A stretch of DNA of 64,000 nt from Nitrococcus mobilis Nb-231 (GTDB lineage: Bacteria > Pseudomonadota > Gammaproteobacteria > Nitrococcales > Nitrococcaceae). A model generated the notes under the pieces. That model was not told the origin of the DNA, ran no database searches, and worked only from the letters and a program-made list of their open reading frames with translations. Below are positions 3,579 through 17,427 of this stretch, piece after piece; positions within the stretch are counted from its first letter, which is position 1; the number at the start of each line of letters is the position of its first letter. The translations under genes were made by a program, and so were the position numbers. The stretch covers positions 1,620,160-1,684,159 of the forward strand of contig NZ_CH672427.1 of assembly GCF_000153205.1 (NCBI RefSeq), written 5' to 3'.

Positions 3579-4517
3579 TTAGCCATGCACACCGTAGAAC
3601 TCGGCGCGCTTGCGCACCCGCACGGCCCACTCGCGATGGGTTGTGGGCTCGCACATCTGGCCGTTCATCTTAAAGACGGCCGGTGCATCCCGCCCAAGAA
3701 TCTTCTCGGCCAGCGCGTACTCTTGCTCGCTCACCCGGTAGGCCGTCTCGATCATGCCGACCTGAGTGGGATGGATCGCCGTCTTCGCCCACAGTCCATA
3801 CATGATATCCATTGCAACCTCGCGCTCTAGGGTCTGCCAGCTGTCGAGGTGTTCGAACACCGGCGAGGACAGCTCATAGCCGGCCGGCCGGAAAGTCACG
3901 ATGATATCGTTGATGACCGTGCGCAACGGCGTGTCGTAAACCGTCATGTGCTTGGGCCGCTTGAGTCCTAGGCATTGCAAAAGGTCGTTCCCGCCGATGC
4001 GCAGGCAAAGTACCGGATTAATAAGCAGCGCAAGGGAATCTCGCAACCGTTCCAGGCGGCCACGATCGAAAGCCACGGCCGTCTCGATCGTCGGCATCAG
4101 CGCAAGCCAGGGCGTCTTAGCCACCGTCTCGGCATAGGCGATGATATTGGTCTCATCGACCTTGGGCAGCACCAGGCCGTCGATTGCATTGATACCCGGC
4201 ATGCGCATGATCTCACCAAGCACCTTAGGATTACGCGGCCGCACGAAACGCATCAACGAGGCCGGCGAAAGACGATCGAGGGTGGCATCGAGGTTGCCCA
4301 GCGCCGCGGCAAGTTTGTTCTCGGGAACGGCATCTTCCGTGCAAACTACGAGCGAGCGAAGACCGCAGAGCTTCTTCTGGTTGAGCAGCGGCACCAAATC
4401 TTCGCGTGTAGCGGGCATATAAAGAGTAGCCCCCAAGCCCATATAGTGGGGCCCGGACGTCTCGCCAGCCTCCCTGGCGCGTACCGTGGCCGCAAACTGC
4501 GCCTTACGATCGGTCAT
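3579..4517 (-). CDS. HpcH/HpaI aldolase / CitE-like lyase of ter module
   Basis: 312-aa protein of the HpcH/HpaI aldolase / citrate lyase beta-subunit-like superfamily, TIM-barrel enzymes that make or break C-C bonds in CoA or keto-acid substrates. Recognisable segments are CTEDAVPENKL near residue 60, LPKVDE in the middle and RIGGNDLLQ, which resembles the metal-binding part of the fold. It is the last gene of a minus-strand run beginning at terZ, 23 bases after the StiP-like gene. CitE-like proteins with StiP, HAD and PRTase partners are known companions of Ter genes and are proposed to help make a nucleoside-like metabolite. The actual substrate is unknown. A free citrate lyase role is unlikely because the alpha and gamma subunits are absent. 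Confidence 0.85.
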   Translation of the reverse strand: MTDRKAQFAATVRAREAGETSGPHYMGLGATLYMPATREDLVPLLNQKKLCGLRSLVVCTEDAVPENKLAAALGNLDATLDRLSPASLMRFVRPRNPKVLGEIMRMPGINAIDGLVLPKVDETNIIAYAETVAKTPWLALMPTIETAVAFDRGRLERLRDSLALLINPVLCLRIGGNDLLQCLGLKRPKHMTVYDTPLRTVINDIIVTFRPAGYELSSPVFEHLDSWQTLEREVAMDIMYGLWAKTAIHPTQVGMIETAYRVSEQEYALAEKILGRDAPAVFKMNGQMCEPTTHREWAVRVRKRAEFYGVHG

Positions 4518-4540
4518 GATGGGTTTCGAACTCGTTGTTG

Positions 4541-5653
4541 TTATGTAACCTTGATAAAGGCGGCTGCATTGAAAGGCATTTCCGGCTCGATGTCGATCGG
4601 AATGCTTTTCTCCTCGGCCAGCACTCGCAAGTGCTCGACATCGGAACTTGTCGGATCGCGCAGCAGCAACCGTCCTGGAACCCGGCGCAACATCACCCGA
4701 GTCGCCTCTGCGATTCCCGGCTTAATGTAATTGACGTCTTTGACGCCATAGCGCGCCATCCAACATGCAACCCAGGCTCGGGAACGGGCCGCCCGATCTT
4801 CCTTGGCAACAAAGCGCAGCGGGTAACCGCTCGCCGCACCAGCGAACGCTGTGCTTATTTCATCCAGAAACCAATTGGTCAGATCGTGGCCGCGCAGGTC
4901 ATCATAGACAACACAGCCATGGAACCCGCACTCGCCAACCTCCTCGTTGAGAATGGAGCGGGAAATCAGCCCCGAGACCGTGGCATTGAGGATGCCTGAG
5001 GGAATCGCGTAATCCTCGTCGGTCGCCGCGACATCCGCCGTGCCCCCGATATCCGAGATCACGTACAACTCATCCGAGAGTTGCTCTGATTCCCGCAGGT
5101 TCCAGGCCTTGATCGCTGCCTTGAACTCGCGCGTGATCACACCTTTTGCGGTCCAGGCATCGGCGAAGAGCACGCCTGCAGCCGGACGCCGCGCAACGCG
5201 TAGGATATAGCGCAGAGCCTCAGTGTCGATCCCGCGATCGCGAATGATCGAGATCGAATAGTGAGTCGAGTCAACTGTAAACACCTCGGTCAGTGCCCGC
5301 TGCAGCAATGCACCAAACGGTGTGCCGGCCCGTGCGAGCGAAACAATGGTGATCGGTGCCGGCCGCGTGGCGACGATGTACTGCGCCAGAACCAAAATCT
5401 CGGTGGCGAGCCTCGCCTTGTAGCGCGCAGTCAGACTCTTGAATAGCGCACGGTACCGCTCGGGCGGCGCCCACTCCCGGCTGATCATCTCCGAATAGTG
5501 GCGCTTGCCACTCTGGATCATCCGCTCTTTCTCGATTACGTCGGTAAAACAGGCTTCTATCGGCCTCAGTAAAAACTGGCAATCACTCGCACGATAGCTG
5601 CCGGTAATGGGCTTACTGATATCGGTTACAAAGTCGGTGCGCCGCATACTCAT
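4541..5653 (-). CDS. StiP-like phosphoribosyltransferase-fold protein
   Basis: About 370 aa, resembling the family annotated as cysteine protease StiP / PRTase_1, which comparative analysis treats as a phosphoribosyltransferase-related enzyme of Ter gene clusters. Visible segments are ITIVSLARAGTPFGALL, matching the early PRTase strand-loop, and VLFADAWTAKGVITREF, in the position of the PRPP-binding loop. I chose the ATG at 5653 because it overlaps the HAD stop as ATGA, the same coupling used upstream. ATGs at 5659 and 5647 are alternatives, and the frame runs open further upstream to 5782 inside the HAD gene. The protease name rests on database labels; the sequence favours the PRTase reading. 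Confidence 0.82.
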   Translation of the reverse strand: MSMRRTDFVTDISKPITGSYRASDCQFLLRPIEACFTDVIEKERMIQSGKRHYSEMISREWAPPERYRALFKSLTARYKARLATEILVLAQYIVATRPAPITIVSLARAGTPFGALLQRALTEVFTVDSTHYSISIIRDRGIDTEALRYILRVARRPAAGVLFADAWTAKGVITREFKAAIKAWNLRESEQLSDELYVISDIGGTADVAATDEDYAIPSGILNATVSGLISRSILNEEVGECGFHGCVVYDDLRGHDLTNWFLDEISTAFAGAASGYPLRFVAKEDRAARSRAWVACWMARYGVKDVNYIKPGIAEATRVMLRRVPGRLLLRDPTSSDVEHLRVLAEEKSIPIDIEPEMPFNAAAFIKVT

Positions 5654-6378
5654 ACCCATGCACCCCGATGAATCTGGCTGCCTTGCGGAGTGAGCGCAAA
5701 GTGGCACAGCTTGAGAAAGGGCAGATCGGTGAGGCTGTCGCCCAGACCGATAAACAACGGCGGGACCGAAGCATCCTCGCAAATAAGCCCCATCACGTGT
5801 TCGACTGCCCGCGCCTTGCAGGCAAACGGCGGCAGCAACGCCATATTGCGGCCGTTGCGATGGATCGTGCCTTCGCGCCAGAATGGCTGGACGATCTTCG
5901 CCATGAGAGCGATTGCGCTACGCTCGCCTTTGATCGAGACGTAGACCGGGATGTCCCGATCATGAATGACTTTGGCTCGTAGCGGCAGATTTGCGGCCTT
6001 GATGTGCTCATGTGCGTAAGCCAGCGCTTGCGCAAACCGTGCCGACCACTTCGGCAACTCGGTCTCGAGCACCCGCTCCCATGCTGGCAGCAACCGCTCA
6101 TCCGCCCCGCACACCAACGCTCCATGGCTGGTAATCCGTACCCAGGGGAATTCCATCGAGCGAACTCGCTTGAGCGCCGCGAGGTTACGGCCGGTCACGG
6201 GGATGAGTGTTGCCGTCTTAAACAGAGCGAGTAGCGTGAGCTGTTCTTCGGTGTGAAAGGACAGCGCCTGGCCGGCCTTGTCGTAGGCCGCTTCATGCAC
6301 CGCGGCGTTCCCACACTTGTCTCGGACCTGGAAAAGTGTGTCATCGAGATCAGTAAAGACATAGACCGGACGGGTCAC
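5650..6378 (-). CDS. HAD-superfamily phosphatase of ter module
   Basis: 242-aa HAD hydrolase. Motif I is FTDLDDTLF at residues 8-16 with the nucleophile and acid/base aspartates. Motif II is the threonine in PVTGRN, and the last motif is GLGDSLTDLPF near residue 220. The size and the cap between motifs II and III resemble Cof/sucrose-phosphate-phosphatase-type members, so a sugar or nucleotide phosphate is a plausible substrate. It starts at GTG 6378, overlapping the previous stop (GTGA), and its own stop overlaps the StiP-like start (ATGA). Such coupling suggests the three enzymes are made in fixed proportion. In Ter clusters this HAD is thought to dephosphorylate the PRTase product. Confidence 0.88.
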   Translation of the reverse strand: MTRPVYVFTDLDDTLFQVRDKCGNAAVHEAAYDKAGQALSFHTEEQLTLLALFKTATLIPVTGRNLAALKRVRSMEFPWVRITSHGALVCGADERLLPAWERVLETELPKWSARFAQALAYAHEHIKAANLPLRAKVIHDRDIPVYVSIKGERSAIALMAKIVQPFWREGTIHRNGRNMALLPPFACKARAVEHVMGLICEDASVPPLFIGLGDSLTDLPFLKLCHFALTPQGSQIHRGAWV

Positions 6379-7511
6379 GCGCTTACCCTCCGGTCGAATC
6401 CTGGCAGGATCACCGGTATCGCATTCAACTGCTCGGACAGAGTGTGATTATAGGCGCAGTGTGGCGCTTCGTAGACCACCAGCACTTGAGCCGTTGTCGG
6501 CGGCGGGTTGTGGAGATAACTGGTCACGCCCTCACCGTGTTCGTCCTCGAATGAGATTGAACTCGCAATCGCGCCGCCCGGCGCGATCGGTGAGCGGGTG
6601 CTGCTTTGGTAGTAAACATCAAAGCCTTGGCGTTCGAGCTGTTCTGCGAGTAGAAAGGGCTGATAACCGAGCTCACCGGTTCCGATCACATACACGGGGC
6701 GCTGGCGATCGAGCGCCGCCGTTGGGGGAACGAGCTTATGTTCCCAACAACCCATACGAAGGCCGCGGCGTCCGATGTCAGCCCGCACCTCGACCTCGCG
6801 CTGTGCAGTCAACTGTCCAGGCAACTCGGCGTGAAACCTCGGATTACGCACAAAGCTGAAACCGCCTTCGAGCACGTTCGCAAAGCTCGGCGACAGACGT
6901 AGGCGCTGAGCGATCGCGCTCGTACGTGCATCGGCATCAAGCCAGTTGACGATGGAGGCAAAAACGATGTGCTGTAGCCTCGGCAGGTGCCGAATCATCG
7001 TTTCGGCGAGCCGCGTCAAAGTACGTCCGGTAGTGATCTCGTCATCGACTAGCACTAGGGTCTGCGCATTGTGATAATCGTGTGCGAGCACCGGCTGCGG
7101 CGCGTAAACGATATGATCAGGCGCATGGCTGTGCACCTCGTCAAAACGCGCGAGTTCCGTCGCTGGCACCGTATGGCGCGTGGTGTGTTGGTAAATTACG
7201 CTGTCTGCGCCGGCCCGCTGCGCAGCCAAACTATCGGCTATGCCACCACCCAGGCCGGTAGCCGTTTCCGCCATTCCCATCACCAGTATCGGAGTTGGCA
7301 TCGCGCACAACGGCTCTATCAACAAATCGTAGATGGCTCGCATACGGCTCGGTCGGCACGGAACGTGTTTGCCCAGCACCTTTGATACAAAGAGAAAACC
7401 TCGCTTTGGATTGCGCCGCGTAGCAAAACCCAGCAGTTCCTCGAGTGGCAGCGCCTCTTTCGTAGTATCGATACTCAGGCGGCCGCACGCTAGATCGATC
7501 TCGTAGCGCAC
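6375..7511 (-). CDS. phosphoribosyltransferase with TRSP domain
   Basis: 378-aa two-domain protein. The N-terminal part is a phosphoribosyltransferase with the PRPP-binding loop LVLVDDEITTGRTL near residues 150-165 and MGMAETATGLGGG before it. The C-terminal part carries the signature SSTRSPI, which names the TRSP domain found fused to this PRTase type (PRTase_2) in Ter-associated operons. It follows terD by about 136 bases, a gap that contains a strong hairpin, and overlaps the HAD gene by four bases. The expected chemistry is transfer of a phosphoribosyl group to an unknown base or from an unknown ribonucleotide. It is not an ordinary purine or pyrimidine salvage PRTase. Confidence 0.88.
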   Translation of the reverse strand: MRYEIDLACGRLSIDTTKEALPLEELLGFATRRNPKRGFLFVSKVLGKHVPCRPSRMRAIYDLLIEPLCAMPTPILVMGMAETATGLGGGIADSLAAQRAGADSVIYQHTTRHTVPATELARFDEVHSHAPDHIVYAPQPVLAHDYHNAQTLVLVDDEITTGRTLTRLAETMIRHLPRLQHIVFASIVNWLDADARTSAIAQRLRLSPSFANVLEGGFSFVRNPRFHAELPGQLTAQREVEVRADIGRRGLRMGCWEHKLVPPTAALDRQRPVYVIGTGELGYQPFLLAEQLERQGFDVYYQSSTRSPIAPGGAIASSISFEDEHGEGVTSYLHNPPPTTAQVLVVYEAPHCAYNHTLSEQLNAIPVILPGFDRRVSA

Positions 7512-7596
7512 CCTCTACCCCCATTTCATAATTATTCTTGTCGATCCACCCCGGACATAATTGGGTTTGATCCGCGCTGTAGGAATAGGCCTTGAA

Positions 7597-7629
7597 TCGA
7601 CACTGGGGTGCCTGGCACCCCAGTGTCGA
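7597..7629. repeat. perfect 15-bp-stem hairpin between terD and PRTase
   Basis: A perfect inverted repeat: left arm 7597-7611 (TCGACACTGGGGTGC), three-base loop, right arm 7615-7629. It lies between the terD stop (7648) and the PRTase-TRSP start (7511). There is no T-run on either strand, so it is not a standard intrinsic terminator. It could be an mRNA stability or attenuation hairpin, or a REP-like mobile palindrome. Confidence 0.85.
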
Positions 7630-7647
7630 ATGGGTTAGCGCCAAAGC

Positions 7648-8223
7648 TCAGATGTTGACGCCGTAGTCGCGAGCAACCGCGCCCAGGCCACCCGCGTAAC
7701 CCTGACCGATTGCCTTGAACTTCCACTCGTCGTTGTGCCGATAAAGCTCGGCGAAGATCATTGCCGTCTCGGTGGAGTAATCCTCGGAGAGATCAAAACG
7801 GGCGATTTCCTTGTCACCGGCATCGTTGACGACGCGTATGAAAGCATTGGAGACCATACCGAAGTTCTGGCCTCGCGTGTCGGCCTCGTGGATGGTGACC
7901 ACGAACACGACCTTTTTCGCCTCGGCCGGCACCGTGTTCAGTGCCACCTTGACGACCTCGTCATCTCCCTCGCCTTCGCCGGTGAGGTTATCGCCTTGAT
8001 GCGCCACGGCACCGGATGGGTCCTGCTTGTTGTTGTAGAAAACGAAGTGACCGTCCGAGAGAACCTTGCCGTTCTCGCCAACGATGAGCGCGCTGGCATC
8101 GAGGTCGAAGTCCTTGCCGTCGGTGGTACGAACGTCCCAACCGAGACCGACACTGACGTCGGTAAGACCTGGGGCTTCCTTGGACAGGGAAACATTGCCA
8201 CCTTTCTGTAGGCTAACTGCCAT
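7648..8223 (-). CDS. terD: tellurium resistance protein TerD
   Basis: 191-aa TerD-family calcium-binding beta-sandwich protein, full length for the family. It begins [15 protein letters not shown], and has GLGWDVR, FDLDASA and the acidic GEGEGDDE stretch, then IARFDLSED and [17 protein letters not shown], all typical of TerD/TerE. TerD proteins bind Ca2+ and are linked to resistance to tellurite, phage and colicins, probably through a membrane-associated complex with TerC and TerB. The start is supported by AAGGAG eight to nine bases upstream. It sits last in the core ter set and before the metabolite module. TerD and TerE cannot be separated with certainty by reading alone. Confidence 0.95.
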
Positions 8224-8355
8224 TGCTGTACTCCTTAATCGCTATTGCCTCTAGTGTAGAGAGTTGCCCTATTTAGCATTTATAGCGCCCTATGCCAGTG
8301 CAAGGCGGCGCTTGCCGGCGGGCTGTTCGCCGCGAGCAGGGGCTACTCATACCCC

Positions 8356-9396
8356 TCAGACGCAGCCGTCCTCACTCGCCTTGCCCTTCTCGGGAAAAAT
8401 GAAGGAAGCAATAACCCCTACGGCCAGGGTCCCGAGCACGATCATTAAGCTTAAGTTCGGACCGATCTCGAAGCCGATATTGCCGAAGATGTGATTGTAG
8501 CTCTCCAACGCGAGTTTGGCCGCGATAAAGAACAGCAGCCCGATGACCGCCTTCTCCAAATGCACGAGATACTTAGTCAGTGCTGAAAGCACGAAATAAA
8601 GACTGCGCAGACCCAGAATGGCGAAGATCATCGCCGCATAGACCAACAGCGGTTCTCGGGTAACTGCGATTACCGCCGGCACCGAATCGAAGGCAAACAT
8701 CACATCCGAGGTCTCGATTGCTATCAGACACAGAAAAGCCGGCGTTGCAAAGTAGGCTGCCGCTGCACGACCTCGGCCCTGAACCTTGATCGACGGATCC
8801 TGGCCCTGCAGGTCCTCGACGATCTTGCGGGTAATGAAAAACTTCTCCAGATGCAAGCGCGGAAACACCGGCACGACCCGTTTCGCCAGGCGCACCGACC
8901 AGTGATCAGAATAGTCCTCGATATCCTCATCAGCACCGCCCGAGGTGAGCATCTTCCAGCCACTCCAAGCAACGATCGCCGCAAACACGAAACCGACCCA
9001 CGCGCTGGCTTGGAAAAGGCTGGTACCAAGCAATATGAAGACCGCGCGGAAGAGCAGCGCGCCGATAATGCCCCAATAAAGGATCCGGTGCTGCAGCGCA
9101 CCCTTGATGCCGAAACTTGCGAAAATCGCCATGAACACCATCAGGTTGTCGACCGAGAGCGTCTTCTCCAGCACGTAGCCGGTGAGGTACATGTCGGCCC
9201 ACTTCTGTTGGAAGCGAATGGCGAGATAAACATAGAAAGCAAGTGCCAAACCGATCCAAAATACTGACCAAAGACTCGCATCCTTGAGCGTGATCTCCTG
9301 GCTCTTGCGATGCGCGAACAGATCGGCGTAGACCGAGAGCCCGATCACGGCGAAGAAGATCACCACCGTCTCGAGCGGAAAACCAAAATGACTCAT
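8356..9396 (-). CDS. terC: TerC-family integral membrane protein
   Basis: About 346 aa from the ATG at 9396 (MSHFGFPLET); the frame is open 12 codons further to 9432 but family members begin near MSHFG. Multiple transmembrane helices include the conserved YLTGYVLEKTLSVDNLMVF region with its acidic residues and the ETSDVMFAFDSVPAV segment, the two TerC half-repeats. TerC is the membrane anchor of the Ter system and belongs to a family also implicated in metal (manganese) export. The position between terB and terD matches classic ter operons. Confidence 0.95.
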   Translation of the reverse strand: MSHFGFPLETVVIFFAVIGLSVYADLFAHRKSQEITLKDASLWSVFWIGLALAFYVYLAIRFQQKWADMYLTGYVLEKTLSVDNLMVFMAIFASFGIKGALQHRILYWGIIGALLFRAVFILLGTSLFQASAWVGFVFAAIVAWSGWKMLTSGGADEDIEDYSDHWSVRLAKRVVPVFPRLHLEKFFITRKIVEDLQGQDPSIKVQGRGRAAAAYFATPAFLCLIAIETSDVMFAFDSVPAVIAVTREPLLVYAAMIFAILGLRSLYFVLSALTKYLVHLEKAVIGLLFFIAAKLALESYNHIFGNIGFEIGPNLSLMIVLGTLAVGVIASFIFPEKGKASEDGCV

Positions 9397-9526
9397 TGCA
9401 GCTGATTCCTCGTCTGCCGCCTCATGATGCAATGTTGAAAACGGCCTATCTTATCGAGAATATCGAGCCCACCGGCGAGCCGAGACACTGACTCGGTACA
9501 CCCGATAGATACCGTATTGCGGTGCC

Positions 9527-9979
9527 TTACAGATCGAAATCCGCTGGGTCGAGCCCGAGTTCGTTGCAGACCTTGCGAACCGCCTGCTTCTCCTGTTCAT
9601 CGAAATCGCCATCGGAGCTGGCGATCGCGCAGCACACGCGCACCAGCAGGCGCGCTTGATCCGGTTTGCTTTTCACCTTGGCGATCGCCGCAAAAGCGTC
9701 TATCTCGCCGATCTGGCGATCGAACTCGAAGCGGCTGGAGAACTTCTCGAACAGCTTGATGATGTCCTCGGTCTTGAACACGGACATGATGTCGTTGTTA
9801 CGCATGAAGCCCATCATTTTCTGCTTTTCCTCGGGCTTGACGATGCCATCGGCATAGGCCACTAATGCGCAACCGGCAACCACGCCTTCGAGGAAGGTTT
9901 GGTTGCGGATTTTGGTGACTTCACCTTTCAGGGACTTGGAAACTTCGTTGAACTTGCCCTTGAGCCAATTGAGTGCCAT
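9527..9979 (-). CDS. terB: tellurite resistance protein TerB
   Basis: 150-aa helical TerB-domain protein, normal length. It opens MALNWLKGKFNEVSKSL and carries two acidic, EF-hand-like turns: YADGIVKPEEKQKM in the first half and ASSDGDFDEQEKQAV in the second. TerB is a cytoplasmic metal-binding protein that associates with TerC at the membrane. It lies between terA (30 bases away) and terC (about 130 bases), in the classic order. Confidence 0.95.
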   Translation of the reverse strand: MALNWLKGKFNEVSKSLKGEVTKIRNQTFLEGVVAGCALVAYADGIVKPEEKQKMMGFMRNNDIMSVFKTEDIIKLFEKFSSRFEFDRQIGEIDAFAAIAKVKSKPDQARLLVRVCCAIASSDGDFDEQEKQAVRKVCNELGLDPADFDL

Positions 9980-10009
9980 AAGCGTTTACTCCGTAGAAAT
10001 GGTACGCGA

Positions 10010-11203
10010 CTACTTGCGCCCGGCGCGCCAGCTAAAGCCCCAGCCGTAGGCTTCATCCATAAAACGATGGCCACGATAATAATCGATGAGTTTACTAACT
10101 TTGATTTTGCCGCCGTCGTTCTCGAGCATAGCTACGGCGCACATGCCTTCGCTGCTGCTGTGGCTGTCGAGACGCACGACGAGTTCCGGCTGATCGGGAG
10201 CCTTGATCGTGATTACCGCATCGGCGGCGGCCCAGTTCGGCGCGCCCTCATAGATAAAAGCGTAGACAAGGACCCGACGCAGCTGCGACCATTGGTCGCC
10301 GTTGATGTGCAGAAACTCGCCTTGACTGGCCTCCCCGGTACGATCATCGGCGAGCAGGTGCGCGTACGGCTTGGAGTCGTAAGCGCCGAAGGTGTTGCCG
10401 AGCGCCTGGACCACGTCCTTAGCGCCGCTTTGGAGTTCGACAAAGCAGCCAAGATCAAGGTCGATACCCTTGTTGCGGCTGAAAAACCCGCCGCCACCCT
10501 TACCTTTCGTCCAGTTGAGGTTGACGATAATTCGACCGTATTGGCCACTCTCCTTGGTGAGCGAAACCGGTTTTTTCTTCTCCAGCGTGATCTTGTTGAG
10601 ATTCACTGGCGCTGAAGACGCTGTGGTTGATGGGGTCGGCGTCGCCGAATGTGACGGCGGGCTGGTAGAGGGCTCGGCTTGCTCGGGGTCGTCTTTGACC
10701 TCAACACCATAGTGAGTCGCCAGCGGACCGAGTCCGCCGTTGAACCCTTGGCCAACGGCACGGAACTTCCATTGACCATTGCGCTTGTAGAACTCGCCGA
10801 TGATAAGCGCGACTTCGCTCATCCCCGAGGCCGCAAGCGGAAAAACGAGGGGCTCGCCAGCACCAGTGACCGTAAGCTTTACCTCACTTAAGTCACCAAA
10901 TCGCTGCCCCCGCTTCTGCCCTTGGTCGATCGTGAGCGCGATCACCACTTTCTCGATGCCGGCCGACAGCCGCTTCAGCTCGAGTAAAAACTCGCGCCGA
11001 GCGGCATCCAACACCACAGCGCCGTCCGCTGATTTGGGCTGCCCGTAGAAAACGAAGCCCTCATCGCCTGCAACCTTGCCGGTACTGGTAAGAAGGAAGG
11101 CACTCGGATCAAGCTCAAGTGCCGTGGCCGCTGGGGTCCACGACAGTTCCGCGCATACACTCAGCTCGCTCAGCGCCGTATTCTGACCGGGCTGTAGGTT
11201 CAT
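10010..11203 (-). CDS. terA: TerA-type protein with TerD-like N-terminal domain
   Basis: 397-aa protein with two TerD-like halves. Residues 1-170 form a TerD-like domain (ELSWTPAATALELDPSAF, then FKRNGQWKFRAVGQGFNGGL-type ending). After a Pro/Ser/Thr-rich linker (about 175-200) there is a second domain beginning KKKPVSLTKE and containing KGIDLDLGCFVEL and GDQWSQLRRVLVYAFIYEG, typical of TerA. TerA is a cytoplasmic companion of TerZ/TerD thought to bind metal through the beta-sandwich. The low-complexity linker is longer than in minimal TerA proteins. Confidence 0.9.
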   Translation of the reverse strand: MNLQPGQNTALSELSVCAELSWTPAATALELDPSAFLLTSTGKVAGDEGFVFYGQPKSADGAVVLDAARREFLLELKRLSAGIEKVVIALTIDQGQKRGQRFGDLSEVKLTVTGAGEPLVFPLAASGMSEVALIIGEFYKRNGQWKFRAVGQGFNGGLGPLATHYGVEVKDDPEQAEPSTSPPSHSATPTPSTTASSAPVNLNKITLEKKKPVSLTKESGQYGRIIVNLNWTKGKGGGGFFSRNKGIDLDLGCFVELQSGAKDVVQALGNTFGAYDSKPYAHLLADDRTGEASQGEFLHINGDQWSQLRRVLVYAFIYEGAPNWAAADAVITIKAPDQPELVVRLDSHSSSEGMCAVAMLENDGGKIKVSKLIDYYRGHRFMDEAYGWGFSWRAGRK

Positions 11204-11239
11204 AGTCCCCCCCGTGACGGTTCCGCAACCAATTAACGC

Positions 11240-11824
11240 TTAGAGATGCTGCGCGATGACGGGCATCAGTTTGTCGAACGTACGACCCTCGCCGTAGGCG
11301 CCCACCGCCTGCATCTCCCATTCACCCGACTGGCGCGAGAGCTTGGCCATAACCAGACCAGTGTGTTCGCCGCCATCGAGCGAGAGATTGAACCGAGCAA
11401 TCTCCTTCTTTCCGTCCACATCGAATAAGCGGCAGAAGGCGTTGGGAATGCCCTTGAAGCTGTCGGCCAAAAACGAATTGACCGTGAAAACGAGTTGCTG
11501 GACGTTGGCCGGCAAATTCTTCAGGTCGACTTGGATACGTTCGTTGTCGTCGTCGGCCTGACCACCGCCGGAACGGTCATCACCACTGTGCTGAACGGTT
11601 TGGCACTTGCTACGCAGTTGGCGAAACCAAACCTGGTCGACGAGCTGGCCGTTGGCCTCGAACATAAGGCAAGAGGCGTCGAGATCGACATCGACTTCCT
11701 TCGTACCGAACAGCCCCTTCTTCGTCCGACGCCCCCACCCCAAACCTAAAAACACTTGTGCAAGACTTGTCCCCGCCTCTTTAGCGAGCGAGATCCGCTG
11801 ACCTTTCTCAAGACGAATCGCCAT
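11240..11824 (-). CDS. terZ: TerZ/TerD-family protein
   Basis: 194-aa TerD-superfamily protein, first gene of the ter unit. It starts MAIRLEKGQRISLAKEAG and has FLGLGWG, VDVDLDASCLMF, the acidic HSGDDRSGGGQADDDNE stretch, and KEIARFNLS. The VDVDLDAS and HSGDD forms and the position in front of terA favour TerZ over TerD/TerE. The product would be a Ca2+-binding beta-sandwich of the Ter complex. The start has AGGAG about ten bases upstream. Confidence 0.92.
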   Translation of the reverse strand: MAIRLEKGQRISLAKEAGTSLAQVFLGLGWGRRTKKGLFGTKEVDVDLDASCLMFEANGQLVDQVWFRQLRSKCQTVQHSGDDRSGGGQADDDNERIQVDLKNLPANVQQLVFTVNSFLADSFKGIPNAFCRLFDVDGKKEIARFNLSLDGGEHTGLVMAKLSRQSGEWEMQAVGAYGEGRTFDKLMPVIAQHL

Positions 11825-12745: not shown

Positions 12746-13804
12746 TCATTCGCCAAGGCCGAAGCCATGCTCCGCCGCCACCGCTTCCAACCGCTCGTGC
12801 AGCACCGTCTTCTCATCCGCATCGAGAAAGCTCGCGTCGATCGCGTTGCGCCCCAGTGTGAGCACCTGGGCCGGGACCAGTTCCAGCGCTTTGCGCACGG
12901 CGAGAAAATTCTCAGTTATATACCCGCCGAAGTAGGCGGGATCGTCCGAGTTGACGCAAACGCGCAGACCCAGCGCCAACATTCGAGACAGGCTGTGCGA
13001 GCCCAGATTTTTGACCACGCGTAGACGCACATTCGACAGTGGACAAACCGTGAGCGGGATTTCCTCCCGGACCAAGCGCTCGACCAGTTGCCCATCCTCA
13101 AGGCAGCGCACCCCGTGGTCGATGCGCTCGACACCAAGGGCATCCAGGGCGCCCCAGATATAATCGGGCCCGCCCTCCTCGCCGGCATGGGCCACGGCCT
13201 TCAGACCCGCGGCACGCGCCTTGGCATAGACTCGCCGAAACTTCTCGGGCGGATTGCCCACTTCGCTGGAATCCAACCCGACAGCCGCGAAGCAACCGAG
13301 GTGCGGTTGAGCCTGCTCCCAGGTGGCCAACGCCTCCGCCTCGCTCAAATGGCGCCAAAAGCAGAGAATGAGCCGCGAACTGATCCCGAAGCGTTGCTGC
13401 CCGGCCGCCAGGGCTCGGGTGATCCCGCCAACCACGCTCGCAAACGGAATGCCGCGACAAGTGTGCCCCTGAGGATCGAAAAAAATCTCCGTATGGACTA
13501 CATTTTGCCGAGCGACCCGCGCCAGGTAGTCCCACGTGAGATCATAGAAATCCTCCTCCGTGCACAGCACCCCCATAGTCGCGTTGTACAGATCCAGAAA
13601 CGACTGCAGATTCTGGAATTCATAGGCTCGCCGCAGCGCCTCGACACTGTCGAAGTCAAGCGATAGGCCGTTGCGTCGAGCGAAGCGGAACACGCTTTCC
13701 GGTTCCAACGTCCCCTCGATGTGCAAATGCAGCTCGACTTTCGGCATGGCTTCGATGAACGCATCGAGGGCCTGCCCCCGTTCATGGCTCTTAGCTCGGG
13801 CCAC
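12746..13804 (-). CDS. adenine deaminase (adenosine deaminase family)
   Basis: 352-aa amidohydrolase-superfamily purine deaminase. The metal and catalytic residues are visible: HLHIEGTLEPE (HxH, about residue 26), VAHAGEEGG (His/Glu), ERIDHGVRC and NSDDPAYFGGY (Asp). The IEGTLEPE form and DSSEVGNPPEKF are features I associate with the adenine-specific branch rather than true adenosine deaminases, so conversion of adenine to hypoxanthine is the likely reaction. The start is GTG at 13804 with AAGGGAG upstream. The IS701 element is inserted immediately upstream, its target duplication touching that ribosome-binding site, so the gene has lost its original upstream region. Adenosine as a substrate remains possible. 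Confidence 0.88.
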   Translation of the reverse strand: MARAKSHERGQALDAFIEAMPKVELHLHIEGTLEPESVFRFARRNGLSLDFDSVEALRRAYEFQNLQSFLDLYNATMGVLCTEEDFYDLTWDYLARVARQNVVHTEIFFDPQGHTCRGIPFASVVGGITRALAAGQQRFGISSRLILCFWRHLSEAEALATWEQAQPHLGCFAAVGLDSSEVGNPPEKFRRVYAKARAAGLKAVAHAGEEGGPDYIWGALDALGVERIDHGVRCLEDGQLVERLVREEIPLTVCPLSNVRLRVVKNLGSHSLSRMLALGLRVCVNSDDPAYFGGYITENFLAVRKALELVPAQVLTLGRNAIDASFLDADEKTVLHERLEAVAAEHGFGLGE

Positions 13805-13819
13805 AACGAATATTCTCCC

Positions 13820-13823
13820 TTAG
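13820..13823. repeat. target site duplication, left copy
   Basis: TTAG directly before the left end of the IS701 element; the matching copy is at 15273-15276. Confidence 0.85.
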
Positions 13824-15272
13824 TACTACAGTTGCAAATAATCATCGACGGACATCTCGAGGATGATCCCCGCAATTCGCTGCCGTCTCACCCAGTGGTA
13901 GAACTGAGCGAGGCGTTGGTGTAGCCAACGCCAGCGGCACCACTGTAACGCCTGTTCAGGCCCTCCGCGTCGCCAGGCGATGGGAGTGAGACACAGCCAC
14001 CGTCGCAGCTCGGCCAGAGAGAGGACCACGGGCATTGGCCGCCCAGGCTGAGCAGCAGGTTTTTTTTCAACTGGTGCCGCCGCAGCGTGACCAGCAGAGC
14101 ATAAGCCGCCATCACCAAAGTGATATGCCGGTGCCAGCCCGTCCAGGTGCGCACCTCGTACTGATCCAGTCCCAGCTGTGACTTGCTCTCCTGAAAGCAG
14201 CGCTCGATGTTCCACCGTGCTCCGGCCGCCAAGGCCAAATCCGCCAGCTCCGTTCCGTTCGAAGCAAAAATGAAAAACGCCTGCATCTCCTGCTCGGCGT
14301 CCAAGCTGCGGCGGACCAGTACCGCCCGCTGCCAGCCTTCGAACGGCGGCGGGTTGACCGCTAAGCAGGTCCAGTCGTACTCCCGGGGACCCTGACTACC
14401 GGCCCCGGCACTGAGCCGTGACCAGCGCGCCTGCGCATCGCCCCTCAAGGCCTCCAACAGCTTCCCCACCTTGCGTTGTTTACAGCCCTGCCAAACATAG
14501 GCTTTGCGGCTGACGGCCAGCACATACCCTTGGCCGCGCTCCTCCAGCATCCACCGCAGTCGAAAATCATCGCCGTAGAGCGCATCGGCTGTGACCCAAC
14601 GGGCGCTTACCCCGCTGTCCAAGGCACGCACCAACATCTGCCGGGCCAATTCCGTCTTGGGCTGATGAACCACCTCGTCCGGTATACCCGCCCGGCGGCA
14701 ACGCGCACGATCCTCCGACCACTCCCGCGGCACAAACAGCGCACGATCCAGTAGCCCCTGGCCCCAACAACTGGCATAACCGAGAAATACACCGATCTGA
14801 GCGTTCTCGATCCGACCCGCCGTACCGCTGTACTGGCGTTTCACTCCCGCCGAGTGTATGCCCTTTTTTATAAACCCCGTCTCATCCACCACCAGCACCC
14901 CGGCGGCATCCTTCAGGGCCTCGTAGACGCGCTGCCGCACGGCATCGCGCACGCCTTGCTCGTCCCAGCGGGCACGGTTGAGCAAGTGCTGAAATCCATA
15001 CGGATGGGCTTCACCCTGGTATTCGGATAACTGCCAGCTATTACGACGCTCAACCTCGCCCAGCAGCCCCCGCAGGTAGGCCCCCACCCGCTCACGGGCT
15101 TCGGCACGCTTGACATGGCCACCCAGTTGCCCTACCCAGCTACCCAGCTCCGCTTCCCAAGCGCCCGCCTGCTCACGCAAACCCTCCAGCGTCAGGAAAT
15201 GGTTCATCTCTACCGCCACTTCGTTCAACTATCTGATAACGAAGTATAGCGTATTTATTTACAACTGTAGTA
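13824..15272 (-). mobile_element. IS701-family insertion sequence
   Basis: A 1,449-bp element with imperfect terminal inverted repeats beginning TACTACAGTTG(C/T)AAATAA at both ends. It is flanked by a 4-bp direct repeat TTAG (13820-13823 and 15273-15276), which matches the YTAR target typical of IS701 elements. It carries one transposase gene on the minus strand. The intact duplication and repeats indicate fairly recent insertion. It separates adenine deaminase from guanine deaminase. Confidence 0.9.
13826..15228 (-). pseudogene. IS701 transposase, frame shifted at an A8 run
   Basis: DDE transposase of the IS701 family. In the first frame (start 15228) it shows VLVVDETGFIKKG (Asp), WVTADALYGDD (Asp) and RWNIERCFQESKSQLG (Glu), so the catalytic core is present. 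At 14060-14067 there is a run of eight A on the coding strand. The zero frame then gives a tail unlike IS701 proteins (ending at 13888). The -1 frame gives LAELRRWL...WRRGGPEQALQWCRWRW and HQRLAQFYHWVRRQR, which resemble the normal C-terminus, and ends at a TAG inside the terminal repeat. This is either a one-base indel (pseudogene) or programmed -1 frameshifting at A AAA AAC, which is in the correct phase. Confidence 0.8.
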
Positions 15273-15276
15273 TTAG
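15273..15276. repeat. target site duplication, right copy
   Basis: TTAG directly after the right end of the IS701 element, identical to 13820-13823. Confidence 0.85.
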
Positions 15277-15347
15277 TATGCGGCGCATCACTCGACCGCT
15301 CGTGCACCGATGCCGACGCTGCTTGCGGACGAATCTTTTGCCTGCCC

Positions 15348-15818
15348 TCAATACAATTTCTTGTCGGCTTTCTCTTGCCACACACGAAACACCGCCATGG
15401 CCTCGTTGCCCAACAGCCGCCGGGTCGGGATGCGCCGCTGATTCAGTGGCAATGCGAGTTCGTCGTAGACGAAGCTGTCATCAAAGCCAATCGCGGCCGC
15501 ATCGTCGCGGGTATTGGCGTAATAGATAACCTGCAATCGAGCCCAGTAGATCGCTCCCAGGCACATGGGGCAGGGCTCGCAGCTAGTGTAGATCGAACAA
15601 TCCGCCAGTTGATAGGTCTCAAGGATTCGGCAAGCCCGACGAATGGCAACCACCTCAGCATGGGCGGTCGGGTCCATAGCGCTCCAGACCCGATTCCATC
15701 CCTCTGCGACCACGCAACCATCGTGCACGATGACTGCCCCAAAAGGTCCACCGATGCCGGCGATCATTTTCTCATAGGAAAGATCGATGGCGCGTCGCAT
15801 GAAAGCGGCATGGTCCAT
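15348..15818 (-). CDS. guaD: guanine deaminase (CDA-fold)
   Basis: 156-aa cytidine-deaminase-fold enzyme, the same length as Bacillus subtilis GuaD and very similar in the motifs I can recall. These are GGPFGAVIV, DPTAHAEVVAIR with the zinc-binding His and catalytic Glu, and TSCEPCPMCLGAIYWAR with the two zinc-binding cysteines, followed by GFDDSFVYDE. The likely reaction is guanine to xanthine plus ammonia. The gene follows AMP nucleosidase on the same strand and originally would have led into adenine deaminase, so the three look like a purine-base salvage/catabolism set. The IS701 element now lies just downstream. A tRNA adenosine deaminase (TadA) is less likely given the GuaD-type ends. 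Confidence 0.88.
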   Translation of the reverse strand: MDHAAFMRRAIDLSYEKMIAGIGGPFGAVIVHDGCVVAEGWNRVWSAMDPTAHAEVVAIRRACRILETYQLADCSIYTSCEPCPMCLGAIYWARLQVIYYANTRDDAAAIGFDDSFVYDELALPLNQRRIPTRRLLGNEAMAVFRVWQEKADKKLY

Positions 15819-15954
15819 GATGCATCATTCTCCGATCCTGCGCCGATCAACCATCCGAGCCAAGAGGGAGCATACCGCGCGTGGCAAAATGGGAGAAGTC
15901 GATGTCTATCTTTGCGACGGCGGCTCGGTGTGCTTTACCGTTCGGGGTGCGAGG

Positions 15955-17427
15955 CTACCGGAAGGCCGGCTCGTCGAAGCTGCGCAACTTGCGTGAATGC
16001 AGCGCATCCACTCCCCCCTCTTTGAGGATGCGGATGGTCTCCAGGCCGATGGAAAGATGCTGGTTGATGCGCGTGCGATAGAAGGCGTTGGCCATACTGC
16101 GTAGCTTGAGCTCGCCGTGCATGGGTTTGTCGGAGACACATAACAGTGTGCCATACGGCACTCGCAGCCGGAAACCGTTCGCCGCGATGGTGGCACTTTC
16201 CATGTCCACCGCGATTGCCCGCGACTGGCTGAAGCGCTCGTAGAGCTCCTCATAGCGAAACTCCCAATTGCGATTGTCCGTCGTCGCCACGGTACCGGTA
16301 CGCAGCCGGGTTTTGACATCGACGCCCGTCAAACCCGTTATCTGCACCACCGCGCTCTGCAGTGCAACCTGAACCTCGGCGATCGTAGGCAACGGCACCC
16401 ACAACGGCAGGTCCTGATCGAGCACATGATCCTCGCGGATATAGGCGTGAGCGAGGACATAATCGCCAAGCTGCTGCGATCGGCGCAGCCCCCCACAGTG
16501 GCCGACCATGAGCCAGCCGTGCGGGCGCAGCACGGCCAAATGATCGGTCACGGTCTTGGCATTGGAAGGACCGAAGCCGATATTAATGAGCGTGATGCCG
16601 AGTCGATCCTCGCTCACCAAGTGATACGCCGGCATGGGCGGCAGGTGAGCCGCCGGCCGGCCCCGTGCCCGACCCTGGCTGAACCGCGGGTTGGGTGTTA
16701 TCACATCGCCTGGCTCGACAAAAGCGGCATACTCGCAGCCCTGCTCGACCTGCTGACGGCCGTAGGCGATGAAATCGTCCACGTAGCGCTGGTAATTGGT
16801 GAACAGCACAAAGCCCTGGAAATGGGACGGGTCGGTACCCGTGTAATGATACAGGCGTTGCAGAGCGAGATCCGCGCGCTGCGCTGGGAACAGCGCCAAC
16901 GGATAGGGGTGCCCGGACGGTGTGCGGTAAGTGCCATTGGCGATGGCGTCGTCGATTTGGCCCAGATTGGGCAGATAGAACACCGACTCCATAGCCCGCA
17001 GTTGCTCACGATCGAGATCGGCTGTCGCCTCCTCGATTACGAACGGCAACGGGATCGCTTGGCGGCTCACACCGATTTGTACCGGCACCCGATGATGCTT
17101 GAGCAACAACTCGATCTGCTCGCGGTAGTAGCCGGCAAACAGGTCAGGGCGTGTCAGTGTGGTACCGTGCACCCCCGGATTACGCAGGCTGCCGTAGGCC
17201 GGTCGGGCAACCGTCACCAAATGTTCGACCCCAACCTCGATGCCGATGTACGGATAACAGGCATCCAACGTCGGCTGCGCAGTGTGGTTGCCCGCAACGA
17301 ACTGTTGATACCGTTGCCGGATACGCCCCACCGCACCCTCGTAGAGCTCGGTGATATAGGCAACCGCCGCGTGCGCATCGGTGAAGGATCGTAGATCGCG
17401 TACCGCGCCATGACGCGTTCCGGGCAT
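15955..17427 (-). CDS. amn: AMP nucleosidase
   Basis: 490-aa AMP nucleosidase, near the E. coli length (484). It hydrolyses AMP to adenine and ribose 5-phosphate. The N-terminal AMN-specific domain covers roughly residues 1-190, and the C-terminal half is a purine nucleoside phosphorylase-like fold with INIGFGPSNAKTVTDHLAVL, MVGHCGGLRRSQQLGDYVLA and VDMESATIAANGF, where the glutamate contacts ribose. It lies upstream of guanine deaminase on the same strand. Together with adenine deaminase it gives a route AMP to adenine to hypoxanthine. In other species amn responds to phosphate or energy state; no such site is evident here. Confidence 0.95.
   Translation of the reverse strand: MPGTRHGAVRDLRSFTDAHAAVAYITELYEGAVGRIRQRYQQFVAGNHTAQPTLDACYPYIGIEVGVEHLVTVARPAYGSLRNPGVHGTTLTRPDLFAGYYREQIELLLKHHRVPVQIGVSRQAIPLPFVIEEATADLDREQLRAMESVFYLPNLGQIDDAIANGTYRTPSGHPYPLALFPAQRADLALQRLYHYTGTDPSHFQGFVLFTNYQRYVDDFIAYGRQQVEQGCEYAAFVEPGDVITPNPRFSQGRARGRPAAHLPPMPAYHLVSEDRLGITLINIGFGPSNAKTVTDHLAVLRPHGWLMVGHCGGLRRSQQLGDYVLAHAYIREDHVLDQDLPLWVPLPTIAEVQVALQSAVVQITGLTGVDVKTRLRTGTVATTDNRNWEFRYEELYERFSQSRAIAVDMESATIAANGFRLRVPYGTLLCVSDKPMHGELKLRSMANAFYRTRINQHLSIGLETIRILKEGGVDALHSRKLRSFDEPAFR

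Follow-up and report, generated by a model that had tools for sequence, protein, structure and literature searches.

The window analysed here is a stretch of 64,000 nucleotides from Nitrococcus mobilis Nb-231 (contig NZ_CH672427.1, positions 1,620,160 to 1,684,159). It carries nine genes on a single (minus) strand, running from 11824 down to 3579, in which the core of a Ter (stress-resistance) operon (11824-7648) is followed by a four-gene module (7511-3579). The locus belongs to a known type of Ter-associated module, in a variant which has no ATP-grasp gene and which is compact but not minimal. We consider it probable that a Ter core is combined here with a known ribosyl-metabolite module in one of its recurrent forms, from which the ATP-grasp enzyme has been lost or was absent from the outset, and that the remaining four proteins would act by ribosylation from phosphoribosyl pyrophosphate (PRPP), dephosphorylation and tailoring by a lyase. 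The computed basis of this reading comprises family membership, predicted folds, a search of the genome that found no Ter-type ATP-grasp gene, a nested gene content among related loci and purifying selection. The nine genes are listed below with their profile matches (E values unless bits are given); dN/dS is the ratio of nonsynonymous to synonymous substitution rates.

11240..11824, minus strand: TerD-domain protein at the terZ position, with which the Ter core begins; PF02342, 2.8e-44; dN/dS 0.08 (two species of the genus)
10010..11203, minus strand: terA, TerD-domain protein with a C-terminal extension; PF02342, 5.8e-44; match to the TerA hidden Markov model (HMM)
9527..9979, minus strand: terB; PF05099, 7.6e-27
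8356..9396, minus strand: terC, membrane protein of the TerC/Alx family; PF03741, 9.1e-42; TIGR03718, 343.5 bits, above cut-off
7648..8223, minus strand: terD; PF02342, 1.2e-86
6375..7511, minus strand: PRTase_2 plus TRSP, adenine-phosphoribosyltransferase-like; PF15609, 3.7e-62; PF12500, 2.4e-17
5650..6378, minus strand: HAD phosphatase (HAD-IIB-like); TIGR01484 below cut-off; PDB 6cj0/6d3v, 2.8e-22
4541..5653, minus strand: StiP-PELOTA, phosphoribosyltransferase-fold domain with an L7Ae-like C-terminal domain; PF11202, 4.8e-94; PF15608, 3e-28
3579..4517, minus strand: CitE-like C-C bond lyase; PF15617, 3.4e-92

Gene content and the absent ATP-grasp gene

Order, strand and coordinates of the nine genes are as claimed in a first-pass annotation that had been made from the nucleotide sequence alone, and the two 4-base overlaps which it pointed out (GTGA at 6375-6378 and ATGA at 5650-5653) are real. 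StiP and the lyase gene are 23 bases apart, terD and PRTase_2 136 bases, the latter gap having gone unmentioned in that annotation. The names terZ and terA are what we take the first two genes to be from their position and from customary nomenclature, Pfam giving just 'TerD domain'. The start of terC was set at the ATG at 9396, the TTG at 9432 being less likely because the orthologue in the same-genus locus L009 begins at the equivalent ATG. Both phosphoribosyltransferase (PRTase)-like proteins fall into Ter-associated families, as had been expected, with PF15609, PF12500, PF11202 and PF15608 above the Pfam cut-offs. The families anticipated for the other two enzymes were not recovered in the same way: a Pfam scan of the HAD protein gave no match, and the HpcH family PF03328 matched the lyase below its cut-off, the specific family being PF15617. 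None of the nine proteins matched the anti-phage defence models of PADLOC-DB at E values up to 0.001. The G+C content of the nine-gene stretch (0.55-0.59) lies inside the range of the window (0.54-0.61).

A Ter-associated biosynthetic module was reportedly described by Anantharaman, Iyer and Aravind in 2012. Among the six features of such a module, the ATP-grasp gene is the single one that the window lacks. We treat this gene as optional and non-defining because many clear members are without it: 32 of the 77 untruncated loci gave no match at the locus. A locus was regarded as untruncated when at least 5 kb upstream and at least 2.5 kb downstream of StiP were available, which applied to 77 of 104 loci.

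The first-pass annotation had noted that the ATP-grasp gene is absent from the window and had suggested a search of the rest of the genome. The absence from the window proved correct, and no Ter-type ATP-grasp gene was found in the rest of the genome either. The Pfam family PF15632 (ATPgrasp_Ter) matches two places in this genome; it was dropped as a test because it also has matches in 13 of 14 control genomes. Instead, a Ter-specific HMM was built from ATP-grasp genes adjoining StiP and used for genome-wide searches together with six positive-control genomes that have the gene at the locus. Its scores were bimodal across the loci, with 48 open reading frames reaching at least 67 bits. The additions from a second round were limited to a CarB-like frame (32 bits) and an ATP-grasp protein of 425 residues from L001 (22 bits), which is unrelated. 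In the one N. mobilis assembly searched, which has 9 contigs and for which the tool gave a completeness of 100%, the best match reached 31.1 bits, in a CarB-like frame of 1080 residues, as compared with 387-463 bits in the six controls. With the same model, the only matches in this genome and two others of the genus were places of 31-33 bits in CarB-like frames of 1080-1088 residues.

How often does a Ter module lack the ATP-grasp gene? In a scan of genome contigs only the best 80 of at least 595 StiP loci were kept, so that the sample of loci leans towards the kin of the window. These loci, supplemented by others from plasmids, phage, viral contigs, the same genus and the same class, gave a StiP tree of 91 rows. 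The window groups with G004 and G002, then with the metagenome bins L019 and L020, within a clade of 18 rows (support 100/100). Seventeen of these have no ATP-grasp gene at the locus, the exception being Candidatus Contendobacter (L026). Because the contig is short in some of these 17 cases (e.g. L022 and L093), whole genomes were searched for 16 of the 18 rows, that is, for all except the plasmid locus L013 and L093. The gene was found at the locus in L026 and elsewhere in the genome of L020 (241.6 bits); L021 gave a doubtful match (64.3 bits) and the other 13 did not exceed 53.6 bits. The gene in the genome of L020 (L107, 1507-2583) is of the Ter type and lies away from the StiP locus, with no other module gene in the surrounding 4 kb.

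Outside the clade, 19 genomes without ATP-grasp at the locus were searched in the same way. Three possess the gene elsewhere at more than 200 bits (L075, L034 and L054), one has a match of 110 bits (L084) and 15 remain at or below 42.1 bits. The idea that the clade is special and that in other lineages the gene is merely unlinked was dropped on the strength of these 15 genomes. On the tree, presence of the ATP-grasp gene corresponds to 12 changes. The ATP-grasp-less state recurs in many lineages, and the clade of the window is one supported case. Clustering of all open reading frames against each other, in which small or diverged genes could escape, revealed no unassigned family common to more than 3 of the 18 clade loci that might serve as a replacement enzyme.

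Gene content among the 77 untruncated loci is nested: 45 have lyase and ATP-grasp, 19 the lyase only, 13 neither and none ATP-grasp without lyase. Sixteen of the 19 lyase-only loci contain all four genes, while L034, L076 and L079 have no PRTase_2 and L076 has no HAD gene as well. Of the 13 loci with neither gene, 11 consist of PRTase_2, HAD and StiP, and two (L065 and L078) of StiP alone. If the four loci with ATP-grasp elsewhere in the genome (L020, L034, L054 and L075) are reassigned, the numbers become 49, 15, 13 and 0. In 13 genomes chosen for being lyase-less at the locus, a genome-wide search for the lyase gave no more than 46 bits, compared with 383-487 bits in three controls. Since the gene content is nested, the window represents an intermediate variant and not the minimum. 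The first-pass annotation had suggested that the genes could form a 'compact, possibly minimal' version of the pathway. 'Compact' is borne out by the recurrent, supported lineage; 'minimal' is contradicted by the 11 loci without lyase and ATP-grasp and the two more with StiP alone. The simplest reading is that the lyase would come before ATP-grasp and that both would be optional additions to a PRTase-HAD-StiP core. Because the variants lack the last one or the last two genes, they form a ready-made pathway series, and a comparison of three-gene, four-gene and full-set loci should reveal product and order.

The four genes are contiguous and co-directional in the same order in 69 of the 77 loci that contain all four (truncated loci counted, hence a different set from the 77 untruncated ones). 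The order recurs in these other loci and is therefore not due to chance. The position of the ATP-grasp gene varies among 52 loci: upstream, downstream, on the opposite strand, or between PRTase_2 and HAD (L098). In six loci of Chromatiaceae (L030, L048, L050, L051, L053 and L055) genes for TerD, TerA and TerB split PRTase_2 from HAD. An independent draw found StiP above the cut-off in 15 of 397 genomes of the phylum; two of these (N. mobilis itself and G066) had already been sampled, and 13 gave new loci, several of them same-genus pairs. The 10-kb contig of G066, which is of the same class, carries PRTase_2-StiP-lyase (L011, 5843-9155) with no HAD gene and no Ter gene, followed by genes that by our own reading resemble the hydrogenase-maturation genes hypB, hypF and hypD.

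The four module genes are under purifying selection. Simple Nei-Gojobori counts for three species of the genus (two species only for some genes) gave dN/dS values of 0.23-0.24 for PRTase_2, 0.13-0.22 for HAD, 0.15-0.20 for StiP and 0.08-0.095 for the lyase. The Ter genes served as references (0.02-0.11), as did ssb and AMP nucleosidase (0.05-0.06). Segment positions 156, 211 and 215 of the lyase keep their acidic residues in 85 of 85 sequences.

Putative enzymes and product

PRTase_2 was modelled with a predicted local distance difference test score (pLDDT) of 92.8, and its best structural matches are adenine phosphoribosyltransferases (that of E. coli with VIA Z 12.0, 176 aligned residues and a root-mean-square deviation (rmsd) of 3.3). 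Its PRPP loop, VDDEITTG, is canonical, and D156, D157 and E158 are invariant in 46 of 46 rows. StiP, although known in databases as a 'cysteine protease', models as a phosphoribosyltransferase (pLDDT 93.5) and is a putative PRPP enzyme with a non-canonical site. The top Foldseek rows are hypoxanthine-guanine phosphoribosyltransferases (HGPRT). In a second structural ranking the capsule polymerase Bcs3 came first, on the residues of its O-ribosylating CriT part (8a0c_A, VIA Z 11.8, 197 aligned, rmsd 3.9), followed by HGPRT (10.5, 148 aligned), another Bcs3 chain (8a0m_D, 10.4, 219 aligned) and PyrR (10.3). As these scores are near ties, no more is claimed than that StiP resembles CriT at least as closely as it does HGPRT. 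At the sequence level a StiP profile found no Bcs3 match among PDB chains at E values up to 1. StiP has no vicinal DD; instead it shows the invariant motif D165-x-W-T-x-K-G (D165, W167, T168, K170 and G171 in 52 of 52 rows). The split acidic pair that replaces the DD motif in CriT consists of D680 and E818 (PMC10299916). In StiP D165 is present and a second D after it is absent. The C-terminal part of StiP weakly resembles ribosomal L7Ae (E value 0.0025; iKPGigEatR aligned to IKKGtnEttK), a protein with an RNA-binding role. PDB matches of the lyase were citrate-lyase-like proteins and acyl-CoA lyases, with E values down to 9.9e-12.

The window HAD can be aligned with five module HADs, and two Asp residues of what we take to be motif I, a Thr, a Lys and two Asp residues of the presumed motif IV are conserved in 98 of 98 homologues. 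A profile of module HADs matched over the full length three PDB entries from Pseudomonas aeruginosa named 'Trehalose phosphatase' (6d3v, 6d3w and 6cj0; E value 1.8e-104). The window protein is of the same family and more distant (2.8e-22 against 6d3v/6cj0). On the P. aeruginosa plasmid pPA30 a HAD gene annotated as 'trehalose phosphatase' (L014, 11247-12005) is located between PRTase_2 and StiP of a Ter module. Its product is approximately 92% identical to the PDB enzyme, as counted on the printed alignment, and has exactly two Cys residues, 85 and 231. An extrachromosomal trehalose-6-phosphate phosphatase of P. aeruginosa has been assayed in a study whose text names Cys 85 and 231 (PMC6838324). 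From this identity and the same two Cys we infer that the three PDB entries represent the enzyme assayed in that study, and that the enzyme is the HAD of a Ter module. In nature it may act on some other disaccharide-like phosphate or on a ribosyl phosphate and not on trehalose-6-phosphate.

In the proposed pathway, PRTase_2 would transfer ribose-5-phosphate from PRPP onto a base-like acceptor and StiP, as the second PRPP enzyme, would perform a further ribosyl transfer. Removal of the 5-phosphate by the HAD phosphatase would render the step irreversible and drive both transfers. The CitE-like lyase would then cut or form a C-C bond on the product, which TerB, TerD and TerC may sense or respond to. 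In relatives, the ATP-grasp enzyme would ligate the lyase product to another group; the pathway of the window would end one step earlier. The substrates, the order of the two PRTases, the action of the lyase before the ligase and the sensing by Ter proteins are what we infer. Ter PRTases and HADs have been proposed to make a nucleoside or nucleotide derivative, possibly sensed by TerB and TerD (PMC7824862). Ribosylation from PRPP by a PRTase-fold enzyme together with a HAD has precedents (PMC10299916, PMC11127046), and in glycan synthesis transferase-HAD pairs of this kind (gPRT-PRP) form an established family (PMC11127046).

These precedents allow for a different, O-ribosylated product such as a disaccharide nucleoside, a possibility that we rate as rather unlikely. 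PRTase_2 would make a nucleoside 5'-phosphate, the CriT-like StiP would add a second ribose-5-phosphate via an oxygen and the HAD, as a relative of an enzyme named and assayed for its action on the disaccharide phosphate trehalose-6-phosphate, would dephosphorylate the product. Lyase and then ATP-grasp would be optional decorations, so that the variants would be one pathway halted at different steps. The L7Ae-like domain of StiP, with K-x-G-x-x-E-x-T-R/K kept, would then allow an RNA acceptor. The 'nucleoside-like' product put forward in the first-pass annotation remains a proposal: an O-ribosylated product fits the fold and HAD evidence equally well. Its observation of a Ter core joined to such a module is confirmed by the present work, and its interpretation is partly supported. 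By linking StiP to PRPP O-ribosyltransferases and the HAD to a crystallised phosphatase, the analysis provides concrete enzymes and substrates with which the nature of the Ter metabolite can be tested.

Other readings of the locus

Several points weigh against a ribosyl-metabolite module coupled to the Ter core. Substrates and product are putative, and nucleotide and sugar acceptors are not separable. The nesting of lyase and ATP-grasp is significant by Fisher's test (p 1.9e-6) if relatedness is ignored; on a quick tree zero independent pairs contradict it, yet the median p of the sign test was just 0.125-0.25. Moreover the lyase-less genome G508 (L084), whose 110-bit ATP-grasp elsewhere was not counted as Ter-type, is a possible exception. 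As an order of steps the nesting is suggestive, and we do not claim it as proven. In ten of the 77 untruncated loci the sampled stretch contains no Ter gene, and these include L019 and L020, the nearest kin of the window outside its genus; coupling to Ter is therefore usual and not universal. Finally, the 136-base gap between terD and PRTase_2 holds a conserved hairpin, so a single transcript of ter genes and module is not certain:

7598..7628, minus strand: stem-loop in the gap between terD and PRTase_2, just downstream of terD; structure conserved in three species of the genus

This stem-loop retains 14 of 14 pairs in all 3 sequences; four of the pairs show compensatory changes on both sides and none is broken. 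The whole gap has a fold z of -3.3, and one arm of the stem-loop, used as a pattern with up to 1 mismatch allowed, is unique in the genome. The hairpin may protect the end of the ter transcript or adjust the core-to-module ratio, as far as three sequences can suggest. An intrinsic terminator between terD and the module was ruled against: the stem-loop lacks a T-run, and a terminator scan did not call it. A promoter scan found 3 candidates against a chance mean of 4.0, in other words no excess.

Could Ter core and module simply be neighbours that travel together and work apart? Gap and hairpin would suit this view, as would the ten loci without a Ter gene and the divergent transcription of Ter core and module in Klebsiella and Salmonella plasmids. 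It also agrees with the report that terZ-F alone sufficed to make E. coli MG1655 resistant to tellurite (PMC8115787). However, 67 of the 77 untruncated loci keep a Ter gene in the sampled stretch, and they include chromosomes, plasmids and a phage, so that on the whole we find mere neighbourhood improbable.

It is likewise distinctly unlikely that the pathway of N. mobilis is complete, with an unlinked general ATP-grasp enzyme performing the ligase step in trans. An ATP-grasp protein of 425 residues encoded approximately 90 kb away reaches 30.7 bits with PF15632 (cut-off 29.1 bits), and the genome of L020 demonstrates that a Ter-like ATP-grasp gene can reside elsewhere (241.6 bits). PF15632 is unspecific, however, as seen from the control genomes, and the candidate scores only 22 bits with the Ter-specific model and, as a protein, 28.4 bits in Pfam, which is under the cut-off. 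On these scores it was rejected as the missing ligase.

A decaying remnant, from which ATP-grasp was lost first and the remaining genes are on their way out, would be consistent with the scattered presence of ATP-grasp (the 12 changes on the tree) and with the apparent single loss in G347, three other genomes of whose family have the gene at the locus. Furthermore, the ter cluster was not found in 2 of 5 same-genus genomes, both of them fragmented, where the ssb/add flank is present at 77-78% identity. Purifying selection in three species (dN/dS 0.08-0.24, with the lyase as constrained as the Ter genes), the conserved catalytic residues and the depth of a clade consisting mostly of ATP-grasp-less loci make decay very unlikely.

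That StiP is a cysteine protease, as its database name implies, and the module thus not purely biosynthetic, is scarcely probable: Pfam and plasmid annotations use the name and 50 of 52 rows keep the Cys of the FHGC motif, but this Cys is replaced by Ser in the other two, the PRPP-loop-like residues are invariant in all 52, stiP lies between the HAD and lyase genes in most loci, and the best-scoring listed structural matches of the confident model are phosphoribosyltransferases, a few low-probability Foldseek rows being pyridoxal-phosphate enzymes. No protease was among the best 50 matches of each StiP structure search, an absence from a list that excludes nothing.

Related systems and neighbouring genes

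The plasmids pSH111_227 (L018) and pJX10-1 (L015) show the same order of PRTase_2-TRSP, HAD, StiP-PELOTA and lyase beside ter genes as the window. In contrast to them, the window has no ATP-grasp gene, and its module lies downstream of the Ter core and is read in the same direction. The window also gave no match of the VWA, TerY, PP2C or InaA type (terW was not searched for), and its StiP is 40% identical to that of L018. Closer relatives, within the clade of the window, are a plasmid of Halomonas sp. I5-271120 (L013), Halomonas LBP4 (L027) and Halovibrio (L028), where ter genes are followed by the four genes with no ATP-grasp at the locus. Unlike the window, these three have more Ter genes downstream of the lyase, and L013 and L027 also another HAD; their StiP proteins are 52-54% identical to that of the window. 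The Acinetobacter jumbo phage ME3, whose Ter set has been described (PMC7824862), resembles the window in possessing PRTase, HAD and StiP with TerD, and differs from it in having neither lyase nor ATP-grasp at the locus; StiP is 32% identical.

The CriT-CrpP pair of Bcs3 and the gPRT-PRP pairs (PMC10299916, PMC11127046) share with the module the combination of a PRTase-fold PRPP enzyme and a HAD, and Bcs3 also the fold match to StiP described above. They differ in that StiP carries an L7Ae-like domain. In the annotated module records examined, the Ter module lies by ter genes and not in a glycan cluster, while a Rhizobium stretch shows neither.

StiP was above the cut-off in 4 of 95 relatives (N. 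mobilis itself counted), and 2567 of 72,556 plasmid records gave a match. In a viral scan 2 of 21 candidate stretches were confirmed: L100, which equals phage ME3 in length and place, and L099, which carries the full set including ATP-grasp, together with Ter genes. The module enzymes are not mentioned by word in two papers on ter genes (PMC11003894, PMC5822837), and no description of ATP-grasp-less Ter modules was found in the titles and abstract beginnings of literature listings, a check that did not extend to the 2012 paper. Subject to comparison with that paper, this analysis adds the clade without ATP-grasp at the locus, the nesting of gene content, the CriT-like fold of StiP and the identification of the HAD.

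Upstream of ssb and the ter operon the window contains, on the minus strand (12746-17427), an adenosine-deaminase-family gene, a tadA-like deaminase gene and a gene for AMP nucleosidase. A DDE_5 transposase gene (13888-15228, minus strand) lies between the first (12746-13804) and the second (15348-15818) of these. It looks like a recent insertion because the two flanking genes abut in L009. The purine-salvage-type group is likewise present upstream of ssb and ter in L009, which carries the ter cluster.

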